NCBI GenBank assembly: GCA_947461225.1
Contig: CANHJV010000016.1
Location: 1 to 38,044 of the forward strand
Direction: 5' to 3'
Source of the DNA: Gemmatimonadota bacterium
GTDB taxonomy: Bacteria > Gemmatimonadota > Gemmatimonadetes > Gemmatimonadales > Gemmatimonadaceae
DNA: 38,044 nt
This document shows, piece by piece, positions 32,159 through 38,023 of the stretch. Numbering within the stretch: position 1 is the stretch's first letter; every line of letters begins with the position of its first letter. Position numbers and translations under genes: made by a program. The notes under the pieces are model-generated. The model worked only from the letters and a program-made list of their open reading frames with translations, searched no databases and was not told the DNA's origin.

Positions 32159-33646
32159 ATGAAGGCTCGGATGTGGACAGCGGTTGTGAGCGCGACGGTC
32201 CTCAGCGCTGGGTTGCCGATGGCTTCCTCGGCTCAGGGTGCGTGCGAGATCAACGACAGCAGCCCGTTTCAGGTGAATGGTGCGAAGCAGTACATCATCG
32301 CCGCGGCCAATTCCCGACGCGCGGATGAGGTCCCCAAGCACCTGCAGAATGCGATTCGTGTACTCACCGACGACCCCTCGAAGATCAAGAACGACGCGGG
32401 TCGGCAGTGGATGTTGTTGCGCGCGTACGCGCAGTGGCTCCAGCGTGAGAATGCGAGCTACGTGATGAAGCGAGGCGACGTCGGCTTCACGCAGAATCCA
32501 GCCGGCTCACAAAACCTGCTGCTCGGTCTGGATTCAGCGGCGACGGCCCTCGAGTCGATGCTGCCGCAATGCAAGGAGAGGGTGCGTCCGTATCGGGCGC
32601 AGTTCTTCGGCGAGATCCTGAACAAATCGATCGCGGCGATGGGGGCCGAGCAGAACGACTCGGCGTCGTATTTCGCGAATCTGTCGCTTCAGGTGGCCGG
32701 GGCTGATCCGCGTCCGTGGAACGTCTTGTCAGCGGTGTACCAGAAGCAGAACAAGACGGACAGTGCGATGATCGCGATGGAGAAGGTGATCGCGCTGTCC
32801 GGATCGGATACGCTGTACGCGAAGGTCAAGCAACAGAGCCGCTACAACCTGGCGGTGATCACGCTGACCCGTGCCGAGGCGGAATCCGCCGGCGACAAGA
32901 AGGACGCCCAGATCAAGACCGCGCGCGCACTGCTCGAGTCCTATCTGAAGGATACGCCTGGCGACGCGAATGCCGCGCAGGCGCTGGGGCGGGCCGTTCG
33001 GCTGTCGGGCGACACCGCGGCGGTGACGGCTATCTTTTCCGACATGCTGAATGCACCGGAGAAGTTTTCGGCCGACCAGCTGTTTGAGGCCGCGTCGAAT
33101 GCGGCAGCGACCGGTCATGACCCGGATGCGGCCAAGCTGTTCGAGAACGGGCTGAAGAAGAATCCCTATCATCGTGTGGCGCTGTTGAACTACGCCAACG
33201 TGCTCTTCACGCTCAAGGATACCGAGCGTATGGCGCCGGTCGTGGCGCGCCTCATCGAGGTTGACCCCAACTTCGACCGTGGCTATCGCCTCATGGCGGG
33301 GCTGTGGCAGCTTCGGGCGCGTGCCGAGTCGGACGCGGCCAAGAAGAAGTCGGCCAACGATTCGGTGCTGTTCTACCTCGACAAGCAGACCAAGACCAAT
33401 CCGCGGGTCGACATCACGTTGGCACAGAAGTCGGCAACCGCCTATTCCGTGCAGGGGACGGTCAACAACGAAGGCAGTGCGACGGCCTCGTGGACGATGA
33501 AGATCGAGCTCCTAGATGCCGCCGGTGCGGTGGTCGCCACGAAGGATGTGGCGATCGGGCCGGTCGATGCGGGTGGCAACACCACCTTCTCCATAAAGCT
33601 CGATGCGCCAAAAGCTGTGGCGTATCGCTATGCTCCCCTCAAGTAA
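32159..33646 (+). CDS. Exported TPR-repeat protein with C-terminal FxLYD-like domain
   Basis: The 495 aa protein has a signal peptide (WTAVVSATVLSAGLPMASSAQ, residues about 6-27) and helical repeats with TPR character at about 150-400 (for example ANLSLQVAGADPRPWNVLSAVYQ and AAKLFENGLKKNPYHRVALLNYAN). It ends with a beta-rich domain (about 415-495: SVQGTVNNEGSATASWTMKI, then AIGPVDAGGNTTFSI) resembling FxLYD domains. GAGGAG at 32146-32151 sits seven bases before the ATG at 32159, the strongest ribosome-binding site in this part; the preceding in-frame ATG lacks one. No enzyme motif is seen; a periplasmic scaffold is inference. Confidence 0.8.
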   Translation: MKARMWTAVVSATVLSAGLPMASSAQGACEINDSSPFQVNGAKQYIIAAANSRRADEVPKHLQNAIRVLTDDPSKIKNDAGRQWMLLRAYAQWLQRENASYVMKRGDVGFTQNPAGSQNLLLGLDSAATALESMLPQCKERVRPYRAQFFGEILNKSIAAMGAEQNDSASYFANLSLQVAGADPRPWNVLSAVYQKQNKTDSAMIAMEKVIALSGSDTLYAKVKQQSRYNLAVITLTRAEAESAGDKKDAQIKTARALLESYLKDTPGDANAAQALGRAVRLSGDTAAVTAIFSDMLNAPEKFSADQLFEAASNAAATGHDPDAAKLFENGLKKNPYHRVALLNYANVLFTLKDTERMAPVVARLIEVDPNFDRGYRLMAGLWQLRARAESDAAKKKSANDSVLFYLDKQTKTNPRVDITLAQKSATAYSVQGTVNNEGSATASWTMKIELLDAAGAVVATKDVAIGPVDAGGNTTFSIKLDAPKAVAYRYAPLK

Positions 33647-33660
33647 GTCCATGTTCTAAA

Positions 33661-33689
33661 TTGACTTCGGGGCTCACAGTTCGTATATT
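33661..33689 (+). promoter_or_regulatory. Near-consensus sigma70-type promoter before the DUF512 operon
   Basis: TTGACT (33661-33666) and TATATT (33684-33689) are separated by exactly 17 bases, each differing from the housekeeping consensus in one position. The transcript would begin near 33696, right at the first leader hairpin. It starts 15 bases after the TPR gene stop. Confidence 0.8.
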
Positions 33690-33698
33690 TTCTCAAGT

Positions 33699-33724
33699 GG
33701 GCGGCCGCGCTACGGTTGCCGCCC
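33699..33724 (+). promoter_or_regulatory. Leader hairpin at predicted 5' end of the DUF512 operon mRNA
   Basis: GGGCGGC (33699-33705) pairs with GCCGCCC (33718-33724) across a 12-base loop. The stem begins about three bases after the predicted transcription start. The CCCC at 33722-33725 could instead pair with the GGGGG at 33735-33739 of the following terminator, so the two structures may compete. Confidence 0.55.
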
Positions 33725-33733
33725 CTTGTCATC

Positions 33734-33767
33734 CGGGGGAAGGCCTTTGGGCCTCGTCCCCCGTTTT
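33734..33767 (+). terminator. Terminator or attenuator upstream of DUF512
   Basis: CGGGGG (33734-33739) pairs with CCCCCG (33758-33763). An inner AGGCC/GGCCT stem (33741-33745 with 33750-33754) and a TTTT run at 33764-33767 complete a rho-independent terminator. It lies downstream of the promoter and 11 bases before the DUF512 ATG, so it may attenuate the operon, or end an upstream transcript or a short RNA of about 70 bases. Confidence 0.7.
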
Positions 33768-33778
33768 CGTCCCGGGTC

Positions 33779-35074
33779 ATGGTTCGCGTCACACGTGTAC
33801 AGCCAGGAAGCATTGCCGACGAGATCGGCATCGTTCCCGGCACTGAACTCCTCGCCGTCAACGAACGGCCGTTGGAAGACTTCCTTGATTGGGAGTTCCT
33901 GACGGCCGATGAGGCGTTCCTCGTGTCGGCGCGACTGCCCGATGGGTCGGAAGTGGAGTACGACATTGAGCGCGAAGGTGGCGAGCCGATGGGGGTGGAG
34001 CTTGCTCCGCCCACGGTCCGACGGTGCGCCAACCGCTGCGAGTTCTGCTTCATCGAAGGGCTCCCGAAGGGACTTCGGAAGGGCCTGTATATCCGCGACG
34101 ACGATTATCGGCTGTCGTTCGCCTACGGCAACTTCGCGACGTTGTCGAACGTGAAGGAGCGTGACATCGCACGCATCCTCGAGTATCGCCTCTCCCCGCT
34201 CTACGTGTCGGTACATGCGACGCCGTGGGAAGCGCGGAAGGTGCTCCTGAACAATCCGCGCGTCCCGAACATCGTCGATCAGCTGACGCGGCTGGCCGAG
34301 GGGGGCATTCAGTTCCATGGGCAGATGGTGATCGTGCCTGGCCTGAATGACGGCGACGTGCTCGAAGAGTCGCTCACCGACCTCTGGAATCTCGGTGATG
34401 CCGTGATGTCGGTGGCGCTCGTACCGGTGGGCGTCACGCAGTTCTCGCATCTCTACAACGGCAAGTCGATGGATGCGGTGAACGCGCGCCTCCTGCTCGA
34501 CACCGTACATCGGTGGTCGGAGCGCGGTCTCGCCGAGCGTGGCGACCGGTGGGTATTCGGCTCCGACGAGCTCTATTTGCTCTCCGATGAACCGCTCCCG
34601 GACATGGAGCATTACGGCGACTTCTCGCAAATCGAGAATGGCGTCGGTGCCGTCACCTCACTGCGGTCACGCGTGCGCGACGGCTTGTCGCAATTGCCGC
34701 GCCTCGACGGCAAGAAGATTGGTGTCGTGACGGGTGTCTCCATGACGCCGTTGATGCCCGAGTTGCTCGACCTGCTGCGTGAAGCCACCGGCGCCGAGTT
34801 CTCGCTCATCACGATGGAGAACTCGTTGTTCGGGCCGACCACGACCACGGCCGGTTTGCTGGTGGGCGCCGACATTCGCAAGGCGCTCACGGATCGGCAT
34901 GATCTCGATCTCGCGCTCATTCCCGCCGAGTGCATCAACGACGATGGACTCTTCCTCGACGAAGAGTCGTTCGTGGCGGTGCGAGAATCGCTGCCGATGC
35001 CGGTATATCCCTCGTACGATTTCATAGACGCGCTGGTCCCGGAAGGTGACGCGGCGTTCCAACCCGCCGCATGA
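33779..35074 (+). CDS. DUF512 protein with PDZ-like N terminus and radical-SAM-type Cys motif
   Basis: The 431 aa protein opens with a PDZ-like domain (VQPGSIADEIGIVPGTELLAVNERPL). A CxxxCxxC motif (C83, C87, C90 in RRCANRCEFCFIEG) is what a radical SAM iron-sulfur centre requires. The region YVSVHATPWEARKVLLNNP and the DUF512 C-terminal half (SVGVTQFSHLYNG-like, later LITMENSLFGPTTTTAGLL) follow. The chemistry is not known. The ATG at 33779 gives the PDZ start; the frame is open upstream through the terminator. The ATGA overlap with der, then plsY and gpsA, repeats an order seen in Clostridia-like genomes. Confidence 0.85.
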   Translation: MVRVTRVQPGSIADEIGIVPGTELLAVNERPLEDFLDWEFLTADEAFLVSARLPDGSEVEYDIEREGGEPMGVELAPPTVRRCANRCEFCFIEGLPKGLRKGLYIRDDDYRLSFAYGNFATLSNVKERDIARILEYRLSPLYVSVHATPWEARKVLLNNPRVPNIVDQLTRLAEGGIQFHGQMVIVPGLNDGDVLEESLTDLWNLGDAVMSVALVPVGVTQFSHLYNGKSMDAVNARLLLDTVHRWSERGLAERGDRWVFGSDELYLLSDEPLPDMEHYGDFSQIENGVGAVTSLRSRVRDGLSQLPRLDGKKIGVVTGVSMTPLMPELLDLLREATGAEFSLITMENSLFGPTTTTAGLLVGADIRKALTDRHDLDLALIPAECINDDGLFLDEESFVAVRESLPMPVYPSYDFIDALVPEGDAAFQPAA

Positions 35075-36384
35075 GTCTTCCAGTCATCGCCATCATCGGA
35101 CGTCCCAATGTCGGGAAGTCCCATCTGTTCAATCGTATCGTCGGAGAAGCGTCGGCGATCGTCAGCGAGGAAGCGGGTACCACCCGCGACCGCCATTTCG
35201 GTCAGGCCGATTGGGCTGGCCACCACTTCTGGCTCGTCGACACCGGCGGTCTCGTCGAAGATTCGAACGAGCCCATGGATGTCGCCATCCGCAAGCAGGT
35301 CATGCAGGCGATCGAAGAAGCCGATCTGCTGATGCTCGTCGTGGACGCCAAGGTCGGCGTGCATCCCAGTGATGCGCGCCTCGTCGATCTTCTGCGTCTC
35401 GCGAAGAAGCCGTGGGTGCTCGTCGCTAACAAGGTCGACGATCCCAATAGCGCCGACTTCTACGATTTCTATCGACTCGGCGTGGCCGACGTGTATCCGG
35501 TGTCGGCCGCGAACGGGAAGGGCTCGGGCGACCTGCTCGACGCGGTCGTGGCGGCCATTCCGGAAACGGACGAAGTGCCGTCGGAAGCGGTGCGTATCGC
35601 CGTTATTGGCCGGCCCAACGTGGGGAAGTCGTCGTTCGTCAACAAGCTGCTCGGTGAGGAGCGTCTGGTGGTGAACGACGAATCGGGCACGACGCGCGAT
35701 TCGATCGACGCGCCGATGCGCTATCACGACAAGGACATCATCTTCGTCGACACGGCCGGCTTGCGGCGTCAGTCGAAGATTGATGACGGCATCGAGTTCT
35801 ACTCGGCGCTGCGCACTCGCCGCGCCATCGATTCGTCCGATGTCTGCATTCTGATGGTCGATGCCACGGAAGGCCTGCAGAATCAGGATCTCAAGATCGC
35901 GACGCTGGCGTGGGAAGCCGGGCGCGGTCTGATCATGGTGATCAACAAGTGGGACCTGTACGCCGACAAGACAGACAAGAGTTCGGCGAAGTTCCGCAAA
36001 GACGCCGTGGAGAAAGTGCCGTATCTCGGTTTCGTGCCGTTCCTGTTCACGTCCGCGCTGACGGGACAGCGCGTGAGCAAGGTGCTCGACATCGCGCTCG
36101 AGGTGCAGGAGCAGCGTACGCGCCGCATCTCCACGTCGCAGGTCAATGATGCGCTGCAGGAGATCATCGCACGATTGCAGCCACCCCAGGCCGCCGGCCG
36201 GGAAGTGAAGCTGAACTACGCTACGCAGGTGGAGACCTCTCCTCCGACGTTCGCGTTCTTCGGTAACCATCCCGAGTTGATCCCCGAGAACTACATCCGC
36301 TTCATCCATAATCAGTTGCGGGAGAAGTGGGGATTCACCGGCTCGCCGATGCGCATCATCATGCGGAGCAAGCGCGAGTCGTGA
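35071..36384 (+). CDS. der: Ribosome assembly GTPase Der (EngA)
   Basis: Der is a double GTPase needed for 50S ribosome assembly. The 437 aa protein has G1 GRPNVGKSHLFNRIVGEASA at the N terminus and a second GRPNVGKSSFVNKLLGEERL near residue 180. Each G domain has its own DTGG/DTAG and NKVD/NKWD motifs. A C-terminal KH-like domain (LNYATQVETSPPTFAFFGNHPELIP, then FIHNQLREKWGFTGSPMRIIMR) follows. The ATG at 35071 overlaps the DUF512 stop and the stop overlaps plsY (GTGA). Confidence 0.97.
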   Translation: MSLPVIAIIGRPNVGKSHLFNRIVGEASAIVSEEAGTTRDRHFGQADWAGHHFWLVDTGGLVEDSNEPMDVAIRKQVMQAIEEADLLMLVVDAKVGVHPSDARLVDLLRLAKKPWVLVANKVDDPNSADFYDFYRLGVADVYPVSAANGKGSGDLLDAVVAAIPETDEVPSEAVRIAVIGRPNVGKSSFVNKLLGEERLVVNDESGTTRDSIDAPMRYHDKDIIFVDTAGLRRQSKIDDGIEFYSALRTRRAIDSSDVCILMVDATEGLQNQDLKIATLAWEAGRGLIMVINKWDLYADKTDKSSAKFRKDAVEKVPYLGFVPFLFTSALTGQRVSKVLDIALEVQEQRTRRISTSQVNDALQEIIARLQPPQAAGREVKLNYATQVETSPPTFAFFGNHPELIPENYIRFIHNQLREKWGFTGSPMRIIMRSKRES

Positions 36385-37019
36385 GTCCCATGCTCGCCCA
36401 GGCCGCGGCGTTGTGTGCCGCGTACGTCATCGGCTCCTTTCCTACGGCGTACCTCGTGGGAAGGGTGAACGATGTCGATCTGCGGACGGTTGGCTCTGGC
36501 AACCTCGGCGCCACGAATGTCTTTCGGACGCTCGGGTGGAAATGGGGGCTGCTCGTGTACGTGGTGGACGGCCTCAAGGGGGCGTTCCCAGTATTGTGGC
36601 TGCCCGGTGCCATCGGTATGGCGGCGGGATGGCCATGGGGCGTGGTGTTCGGTCTCCTTGCCATTCTGGGTCATGTTCGCCCCGTGTTCCTGATGGGGAA
36701 GGGCGGAGGCAAAGGGGTCGCCACCGCGAGTGGTGTGTTCATCGCCTTGGCCCCCGTCCCGGCACTTTGTGCCATGATCGGTTTTGTGATTGTTGTGGCC
36801 ATTTCCCGCTACGTCTCGCTGGGTTCCCTGGTCGGCGCGGTCGTGTTGCCCGTCGCGTTGATGCTACAGGAGGGTGCCGTCACCCCGTTGGTGCTGGTGG
36901 GTGCGGCCGTGGGCGCCTTCGTGTTCTGGACGCACCGCGAGAACATCGGCCGCCTACGCCGCGGGGAGGAACGTCGTATCGGACGGAGCTCATCGACTAC
37001 CAGCGGAGGTCGCGCGTGA
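36381..37019 (+). CDS. plsY: Glycerol-3-phosphate acyltransferase PlsY
   Basis: PlsY transfers acyl groups from acyl-phosphate to glycerol-3-phosphate, the first step in phospholipid synthesis. The 212 aa membrane protein shows AAYVIGSFPTAYLVGRVNDVDLRTVGSGNLGATNVFRTLG, the family's catalytic loop, and FGLLAILGHVRPVFLMGKGGGKGVATASGV, the second conserved block. About five hydrophobic segments are visible. The GTG at 36381 overlaps the der stop; an ATG at 36390 is an alternative. It supplies the acylation step that follows gpsA chemistry. Confidence 0.95.
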   Translation: MSPMLAQAAALCAAYVIGSFPTAYLVGRVNDVDLRTVGSGNLGATNVFRTLGWKWGLLVYVVDGLKGAFPVLWLPGAIGMAAGWPWGVVFGLLAILGHVRPVFLMGKGGGKGVATASGVFIALAPVPALCAMIGFVIVVAISRYVSLGSLVGAVVLPVALMLQEGAVTPLVLVGAAVGAFVFWTHRENIGRLRRGEERRIGRSSSTTSGGRA

Positions 37020-38023
37020 CGGACGGTGCGCTTGTGTGCGCTGTGATCGGGGGTGGTGCATGGGGGACGGCGATCGCCGATCGTCTCGTGCGCAACGGCC
37101 ATCGCGTGACGCTCTGGGCCCGCGAGGAAGATGTGGTCGAGGCGGTCAACGCGCGGCGCGAGAATCCACGGTTTCTGCCGGAGGTCACGTTGGCGCCGGG
37201 CCTCATGGCGAGTCGCGATATGGCGCTGGCACTTCAGGGCGCCGGTCTCGTGGTCTACGCCGCCCCTTCGCACGTCCTGCGTGCGGTGGTCGCGTCGTCT
37301 GCCGGCTCGATCGCGCCGGGAGCGGTATTGTCGGTGGCCACCAAGGGTATCGAACGTGAGACGTTGGCCTTGATGACGGACGTCGTCGCGCAGGAAGCGC
37401 TCGGACATGCGGTGGTGGCGGTGAGCGGTCCGAGCTTCGCGGCGGAAGTCGCGCAGGGACAACCCACGGCCGTCGTAGCGGCGAGCTCGTCGCACCACGC
37501 GGCAATGTTGGTACAGGGGGCCATGAGTGCCGCTGCGTTCCGCGTGTACACGAGCGACGATGTCACGGGGGTAGAGCTCGGCGGTGCGCTTAAGAACGTG
37601 ATGGCTGTGGCGACGGGGATTCTCGACGGTCTTGGACTCGGGTACAATCCGCGCGCGGCGCTAATGACGCGCGGGTTGGCGGAAATGACGCGCCTCGGCG
37701 TGTCGCTCGGGGCGCGAGCCGAGACGTTTGCCGGCTTGGCAGGCCTCGGCGATCTCGTGCTGACATGCACCGGAGCGCTCTCCCGTAATCGGGCGCTCGG
37801 CGTGGCGATCGGGCAGGGCCAGTCGCTTGACGAGGCGCTGGCCGGCAAGGACAGTGTCGCGGAGGGTGTGCTGAACGCGCAGAGCGCCAAAGCGCTGGCC
37901 GACCGTGCCGGTGTCGAGATGCCGATCATCGATGCGACCTATCGCATTCTGTTCGACGGGCAGGCGCCGCGCGAAGCCGTTGCCGAGTTGATGGCGCGCG
38001 AACTGCGCGCGGAGCGCGACTGA
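37016..38023 (+). CDS. gpsA: NAD(P)-dependent glycerol-3-phosphate dehydrogenase GpsA
   Basis: GpsA makes sn-glycerol-3-phosphate from dihydroxyacetone phosphate, the substrate of PlsY. The 335 aa protein has VIGGGAWGTAIADRLVRNGH at the N terminus, AVSGPSFAAEVAQGQPTAVV in the middle, GVELGGALKNVMAVATGILDGLGLG with the catalytic Lys, and LGDLVLTCTGALSRNRALG as in the family. The GTG at 37016 overlaps the plsY stop. Only 21 bases remain after the stop, too few to identify the next gene. Confidence 0.96.
   Translation: MTDGALVCAVIGGGAWGTAIADRLVRNGHRVTLWAREEDVVEAVNARRENPRFLPEVTLAPGLMASRDMALALQGAGLVVYAAPSHVLRAVVASSAGSIAPGAVLSVATKGIERETLALMTDVVAQEALGHAVVAVSGPSFAAEVAQGQPTAVVAASSSHHAAMLVQGAMSAAAFRVYTSDDVTGVELGGALKNVMAVATGILDGLGLGYNPRAALMTRGLAEMTRLGVSLGARAETFAGLAGLGDLVLTCTGALSRNRALGVAIGQGQSLDEALAGKDSVAEGVLNAQSAKALADRAGVEMPIIDATYRILFDGQAPREAVAELMARELRAERD

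Follow-up and report, generated by a model that had tools for sequence, protein, structure and literature searches.

Introduction

The rimP-leader is an attenuator of the rimP-nusA-infB operon (Naville and Gautheret 2010, PMC2965389), and a read-through that is constant or set by a protein had been proposed for it (PMC2965389). A different arrangement is that of AlpA, a cellular protein that passes a terminator by way of a promoter element (PMC7969949). Terminators are also placed in the leader ahead of housekeeping operons in the ribosomal-protein and riboswitch attenuators. Leaders of the ompA type carry stabilising hairpins at their 5′ termini.

The leader described here is from a Gemmatimonas genome (family Gemmatimonadaceae) and lies within a window of 38,044 nt, i.e., the whole stretch of DNA that was analysed. 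It precedes genes for Der, a ribosome-assembly GTPase, and for phospholipid synthesis. The likeness to the rimP-leader is in a short terminator-type leader with a conserved G-rich 5′ arm and a C-rich 3′ arm, in the lack of a visible antiterminator or aptamer, in a variable distance to the start codon, and in an operon with a ribosome-maturation gene downstream. However, the phylum is another one and the operon is DUF512-der-plsY-gpsA, not rimP-nusA-infB; the stem is GGGGGA...CCCCC as opposed to GGGc...gCCC in rimP, and there is an extra hairpin at +1. In an Rfam search of the der-operon leader the rimP-leader is not matched, even at E <= 5. With AlpA and Q the locus shares an element embedded in the promoter and a terminator-type hairpin right behind the promoter (PMC7969949), but the der-operon element overlaps the −35 box and persists without a terminator in leaderless relatives. 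In contrast to the ribosomal-protein and riboswitch attenuators, there is no conserved sensor domain and there are no mutually exclusive helices. The first hairpin, at the predicted 5′ end, is similar in position to those of ompA-type leaders, with the difference that a terminator-type hairpin and a U-tract follow it. A search of the literature revealed nothing on Gemmatimonas transcript starts or on a leader of the der operon.

The promoter and leader of the operon

The features of the locus are listed below; hp1 and hp2 are the first and second hairpins.

End at 33646 (stop codon 33644-33646): upstream TPR gene
33645-33667, + strand: palindromic element AAGTC-N13-GACTT, left half on the TPR stop codon, right half on the −35 box
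33661-33666, + strand: −35 box TTGACT, followed by the 17-bp spacer that is present in nearly all promoters found in the family
33684-33689, + strand: −10 box TATATT, predicted +1 at 33695-33697
33694-33728, + strand: hp1, with a CAAG...CUUG base, −22.6 kcal/mol, covarying
33734-33763, + strand: hp2, terminator-type, CGGGGGAAGGCC-UUUG-GGCCUCGUCCCCCG, −21.7 to −23.6 kcal/mol, covarying
33764-33770, + strand: U-tract UUUUCGU after hp2, 5 T in 8 counted from 33764
33774-33776, + strand: weak Shine-Dalgarno-like GGG (RGG), GG columns nearly invariant, GAGG, AAGG or AGGG in relatives
33779-35074, + strand: first operon gene, a PDZ / radical SAM / DUF512 protein (PF19238, PF04459, PF17820)
35071-36384, + strand: der (engA), ribosome-assembly GTPase (MMR_HSR1 twice, PF14714)
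36384-37019, + strand: plsY, glycerol-3-phosphate acyltransferase (PF02660), start codon inside this stretch or just ahead of it
36980-38023, + strand: gpsA, glycerol-3-phosphate dehydrogenase (PF01210, PF07479), start within this stretch

The gene order DUF512-der-plsY-gpsA thus begins at the ATG at 33779, downstream of the TPR gene end at 33646. DUF512 was recently reported as a cobalamin-binding domain in radical SAM enzymes (PMC11659888); a cobalamin riboswitch is absent from the leader.

A promoter sequence, TTGACT-17-TATATT (33661-33689), had been noted from the window sequence alone, and the observation is confirmed. The site has 10/12 consensus matches and is the better of only two promoter-like sites within 8 kb, where shuffled sequences yield 1.1. 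The promoter is conserved in most Gemmatimonadaceae genera, with the 17-bp spacer in nearly all cases. When the region was extracted from 135 relatives representing 33 Gemmatimonadaceae genera, the promoter was recognisable in 126 of them, with a −10 box of the TAnnTT type and a spacer of 17 bp in nearly all. The AAGTC-N13-GACTT form of the palindrome is that of Gemmatimonas; AAGT-N12-TTG, at the same spacing, is found in 102 of 150 upstream regions from the family and order. A palindrome regulon was sought in the genus genomes and none was found, the element being present only at the der-operon promoter.

Together, hp1 and hp2 make up both the minimum free energy and the centroid structure of the leader, and the folding z-score is −2.5 for the leader alone and −3.1 when the first codons are included. 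A hairpin near the predicted +1 was expected from the sequence-only reading and is found as hp1. The terminator predicted there, with TTTT 11 bases ahead of the start codon, agrees in form and spacing with hp2: between the TTTT at 33764-33767 and the ATG at 33779 there are exactly 11 bases. A stable GC-rich hairpin and a directly adjoining U-tract, two characteristics of an intrinsic terminator, are both present in hp2. It should be noted that a simple terminator scan did not list hp2; the bulge in the hp2 stem is the probable reason. By inspection of the window sequence, neither an ATG nor a ribosome-binding site was seen in the leader upstream of hp2. Rfam gave no match at the gathering cut-off and only chance matches at E<=5, in accord with the earlier statement that no known riboswitch motif is present.

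Comparison of hp2 with the 3′ ends of genes

Control statistics for terminators were taken from two complete genomes with home-made gene calls, over 800 kb in G029 and 400 kb in G174. A hairpin of <= −15 kcal/mol followed by at least 4 T in 8 is found in 29/114 convergent 3′ regions of G029, compared with 8/140 coding controls. A count of T>=5 is reached by only 12 of the 41 G029 hits at <= −10 kcal/mol, and typical tails at the convergent 3′ ends are TTTCGTGC and TTCGTTGT. With −21.7 kcal/mol and 5 T in 8, hp2 followed by TTTTCGTC falls inside the range of genuine convergent 3′ ends in G029, and its U-tract is as good as or better than that of most true 3′-end terminators of that genome, although the Gemmatimonas (g1) U-tract has just 4 uninterrupted U. 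Because of this comparison, hp2 is rated on sequence grounds as an ordinary or above-average terminator by the standard of the genus.

When leaders of the genus were scored for hairpin plus tail, 26/28 outscored at least 57 of 60 dinucleotide shuffles. A looser search for the pattern GGGGGAAG...CTTCCCCC returned the der-operon leader and scattered other sites, including hairpins beside tRNA genes; the tRNA-adjacent hairpins of the genus share the GGGGGAAG...CTTCCCCC form and have short T-tails.

Another leader in G029 likewise has a hairpin and a U-tract (GAGGCTCGTGCAATCGCACGGGCCTT followed by TTGCTTTT), about 70 nt ahead of a start codon. It belongs to a divergent gene that starts with MIIVTVPGISESALARL (stretches L088-L127) and is possibly another attenuator.

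Conservation of the leader in Gemmatimonas

Orthologues of the DUF512 protein are found in 29/30 genus genomes. The sequence-only reading had named a lack of conserved pairings in relatives as grounds for abandoning it; hp1 and hp2 are conserved in 27 Gemmatimonas leaders, both with compensatory changes, in a single copy per genome and always ahead of the same gene. From 24 distinct Gemmatimonas leaders an alignment was made and used for a covariance model, which gives a strong match in 28/30 genus genomes, all at the DUF512 gene. Further copies elsewhere in the genomes were sought with this model and none is convincing, the weak remainder resembling unrelated GC-rich hairpins.

Covariation statistics were taken from the same 24-leader alignment. 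Paired cells amount to 93.5%, as compared with 90.1% in shuffles, and pairing falls to about 51% when the partner is slid by one base. Changes on both sides occur in 8/26 pairs, with 27 double-change cells compared with 9.4 +/- 2.9 in shuffles. In hp1, 94.3% of cells are paired and double changes are seen in 5/15 pairs. For hp2, they are seen in 3/4 pairs of the upper stem; its lower stem is 98.6% paired with one-sided changes only, mostly to G-U. Almost every Gemmatimonas leader retains the U-tract, with 4-7 T in 8. The loops and the linker vary freely in the alignment, and no conserved unpaired sensor or aptamer-like loop was found in it. As judged from these comparisons, the leader is a real, single-copy, conserved RNA structure.

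Leader states in the Gemmatimonadaceae

Two states are found in the family. A leader of roughly 50-124 nt is present in 100 sequences, and 26 sequences are leaderless, with the ATG 5-9 nt past the −10 box. Both states occur in genus g46. Sequences with the ATG 5-9 nt past the −10 box include L033, L034, L153, L166, L198, L200, L203, L214, L215, L220 and L221, and likewise L224-L226, L229-L232, L235, L242, L247 and L248. Because of this short distance, the der operon mRNA is predicted to be leaderless or nearly so in such relatives.

A GGGG...CCCC hairpin is found in 68/100 leaders, many of them with poor U-tails. The tails vary with genus. In 13/16 species of g46 a hairpin begins 4-6 nt after the −10 box and is followed by 5-7 T in 8; all 13 leaders have a short hairpin of textbook terminator form, and the distance from hairpin to ATG is about 26-52 nt. 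A terminator placed in this way would act on an unusually short RNA, of only about 22 nt, and the abutment of a terminator on +1 in g46 is the most unusual feature encountered. A textbook terminator hairpin starting at the predicted +1 is seen in L146, L147, L199, L201, L202 and L204-L211. Elsewhere, L135 (g23) has a 20-nt hairpin with 8 T, L024 and L025 have a long U-tract after the stem, and in g4 and g30 the hairpins are strong and the tails moderate. The GGGG...CCCC hairpin has a poor U-tail in g23, g24, g35, g43 and others (CCCCCAUUGCAC, CCCCCGUCGC), and the poor tails in these four genera speak most strongly against a terminator role in all genera.

The family offers a natural comparison, with one promoter followed by a weak terminator, by a textbook terminator at +1, or by no leader. 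Because of this comparison, it can be tested directly to what extent, and at how early a point, intrinsic termination may limit a housekeeping operon.

Possible roles of the leader

The explanation that we favour, at a probability of roughly 0.6, is a conserved leader terminator that lacks a sensor and is similar to the rimP-leader, with read-through that is either constant or under the control of a trans factor. Transcription would start at about 33695-33697, as suggested by the promoter conserved throughout the family, and the nascent RNA would fold hp1 at its very 5′ end, then hp2 with the U-tract. From form and phylogeny we infer that hp2 and the U-tract act in vivo as an intrinsic terminator of the leader. 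Some polymerases would then stop near 33768-33770 and release a short RNA of about 70-75 nt, as the position of the U-tract suggests, and the remainder would enter the operon and set its expression. The promoter is upstream of hp2, so that a terminator-like hairpin does lie between promoter and start codon on the path of the operon's RNA polymerase, as the sequence-only reading had stated in placing the operon behind a terminator. Read-through would most likely be a fixed leak, or depend on a protein whose target is RNA polymerase or the hairpin; these are favoured over an RNA switch that responds to a ligand because there is no conserved antiterminator and the terminator hairpin of a sister genus starts at +1. 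Any regulator and its signal are likewise presumed. In addition, hp1 may protect the 5′ end of the message.

The terminator-type hairpin is probably a built-in brake on the gene cluster. A point against this is that the leader is missing from 26/135 sampled relatives, so that the operon as such can do without attenuation. Leader attenuators that lack a visible sensor are a known kind of element, of which this would be a new instance, and if the explanation is true, it places an attenuator with no recognisable sensor in a phylum with few studies of regulatory RNA.

Rated next, as possible though clearly less probable, is a role of the leader as a structured 5′ UTR that serves the stability or translation of the mRNA. 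In this case hp1 would block exonucleases, hp2 would keep the ribosome-binding site insulated, and there would be hardly any termination. Consistent with this is the start of hp1, with its covarying base, at the predicted +1 in every aligned Gemmatimonas leader, as well as a predicted fold in which the AUG and the Shine-Dalgarno region are mostly unpaired. The hairpin itself could also be the conserved feature, because several genera keep it with a poor U-tail, and poor tails are frequent among the leaders with GGGG...CCCC. However, Gemmatimonas has kept the U-tract adjoining the stem, long U-tracts are seen in g46, L135 and L024/L025, and a U-tract is unnecessary for stability.

An antitermination of the AlpA or lambda-Q type, whereby a dedicated protein on the −35 palindrome would join RNA polymerase and enable it to pass hp2, is improbable. 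It has the precedent of AlpA, where the terminator is 54 nt after +1 (PMC7969949), and the palindrome, of fixed spacing and unique to the der-operon promoter in each genome, does lie beside a promoter-proximal terminator-type hairpin. However, the element of AlpA is between the −35 and −10 boxes and not over −35, and the palindrome is retained in 15/26 leaderless relatives, among them every g34 sequence and the three g46 sequences that lack a leader. It probably serves initiation and is not an antitermination device, because it is kept in relatives that have no leader and no terminator. The wider proposal, that in the Gemmatimonadaceae one palindrome promoter serves the operon either by a leaderless or nearly leaderless mRNA or by way of a terminator directly at or after +1, with a promoter-loaded factor deciding read-through in early elongation, is equally improbable; if true, it would be a cellular housekeeping counterpart of AlpA/Q antitermination.

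It is very improbable that hp2 merely terminates the upstream TPR transcript. In Gemmatimonas the upstream gene is in tandem and ends shortly ahead of the promoter, an arrangement that would allow it, and the sequence-only reading had considered that the operon might then be served by another promoter. However, hp2 is downstream of the operon's own promoter, there is no second promoter between hp2 and the ATG, and the 11 bases between U-tract and ATG are too short for any promoter. The leader type tracks the genus and not the upstream gene, which is variously TPR, larC-like or thrC-like by inspection. In G174, a complete genome from the genus whose textbook terminators begin at +1, the gene upstream (1590419-1591846) is divergent and on the minus strand, the operon (DUF512-der-plsY-gpsA-merR-surE) starts at 1591927, and a terminator is still present between them. 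Because of the divergent orientation, the G174 terminator cannot end the upstream transcript.

The least probable explanation is the RNA on/off switch of the sequence-only reading, with the 3′ arm of hp1 pairing with the 5′ arm of the terminator; as a conserved switch of competing hairpins it is rejected by the alignment, by constrained folding and by partition-function folding. The positions given for the alternative helix are right as letters (CCCC at 33722-33725 with GGGGG at 33735-33739), and in nascent RNA without the 3′ arm of hp2, the 5′ arm pairs upstream with a probability of 0.62 in the window's own species. However, this value is about 0 in L009, L024, L025 and L027, with a mean of 0.24, and in the full leader forcing the alternative helix costs 9.7 kcal/mol or more and its summed probability is about 1e-6. 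The helix is mostly formable in relatives because each strand is fixed by its own hairpin. Alignment of relatives, the check suggested earlier for covariation of both alternative stems, upholds hp1 and hp2 and fails the alternative helix, which has double changes in 0/4 pairs and scores exactly as in shuffles of the genus alignment. A switch is also opposed by the absence of a conserved loop, aptamer-like sequence or Rfam match, and by the g46 terminators, which have no RNA upstream for an antiterminator.

Upstream regions in other families of the order

The DUF512 gene is directly preceded by a tRNA gene (GCGGGCGTAATTCAG...), apparently for tRNA-Gly, in L037, L040, L042 and L050, which belong to other families of the order. 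A GC-rich hairpin is present between the two genes in L040 and L050.
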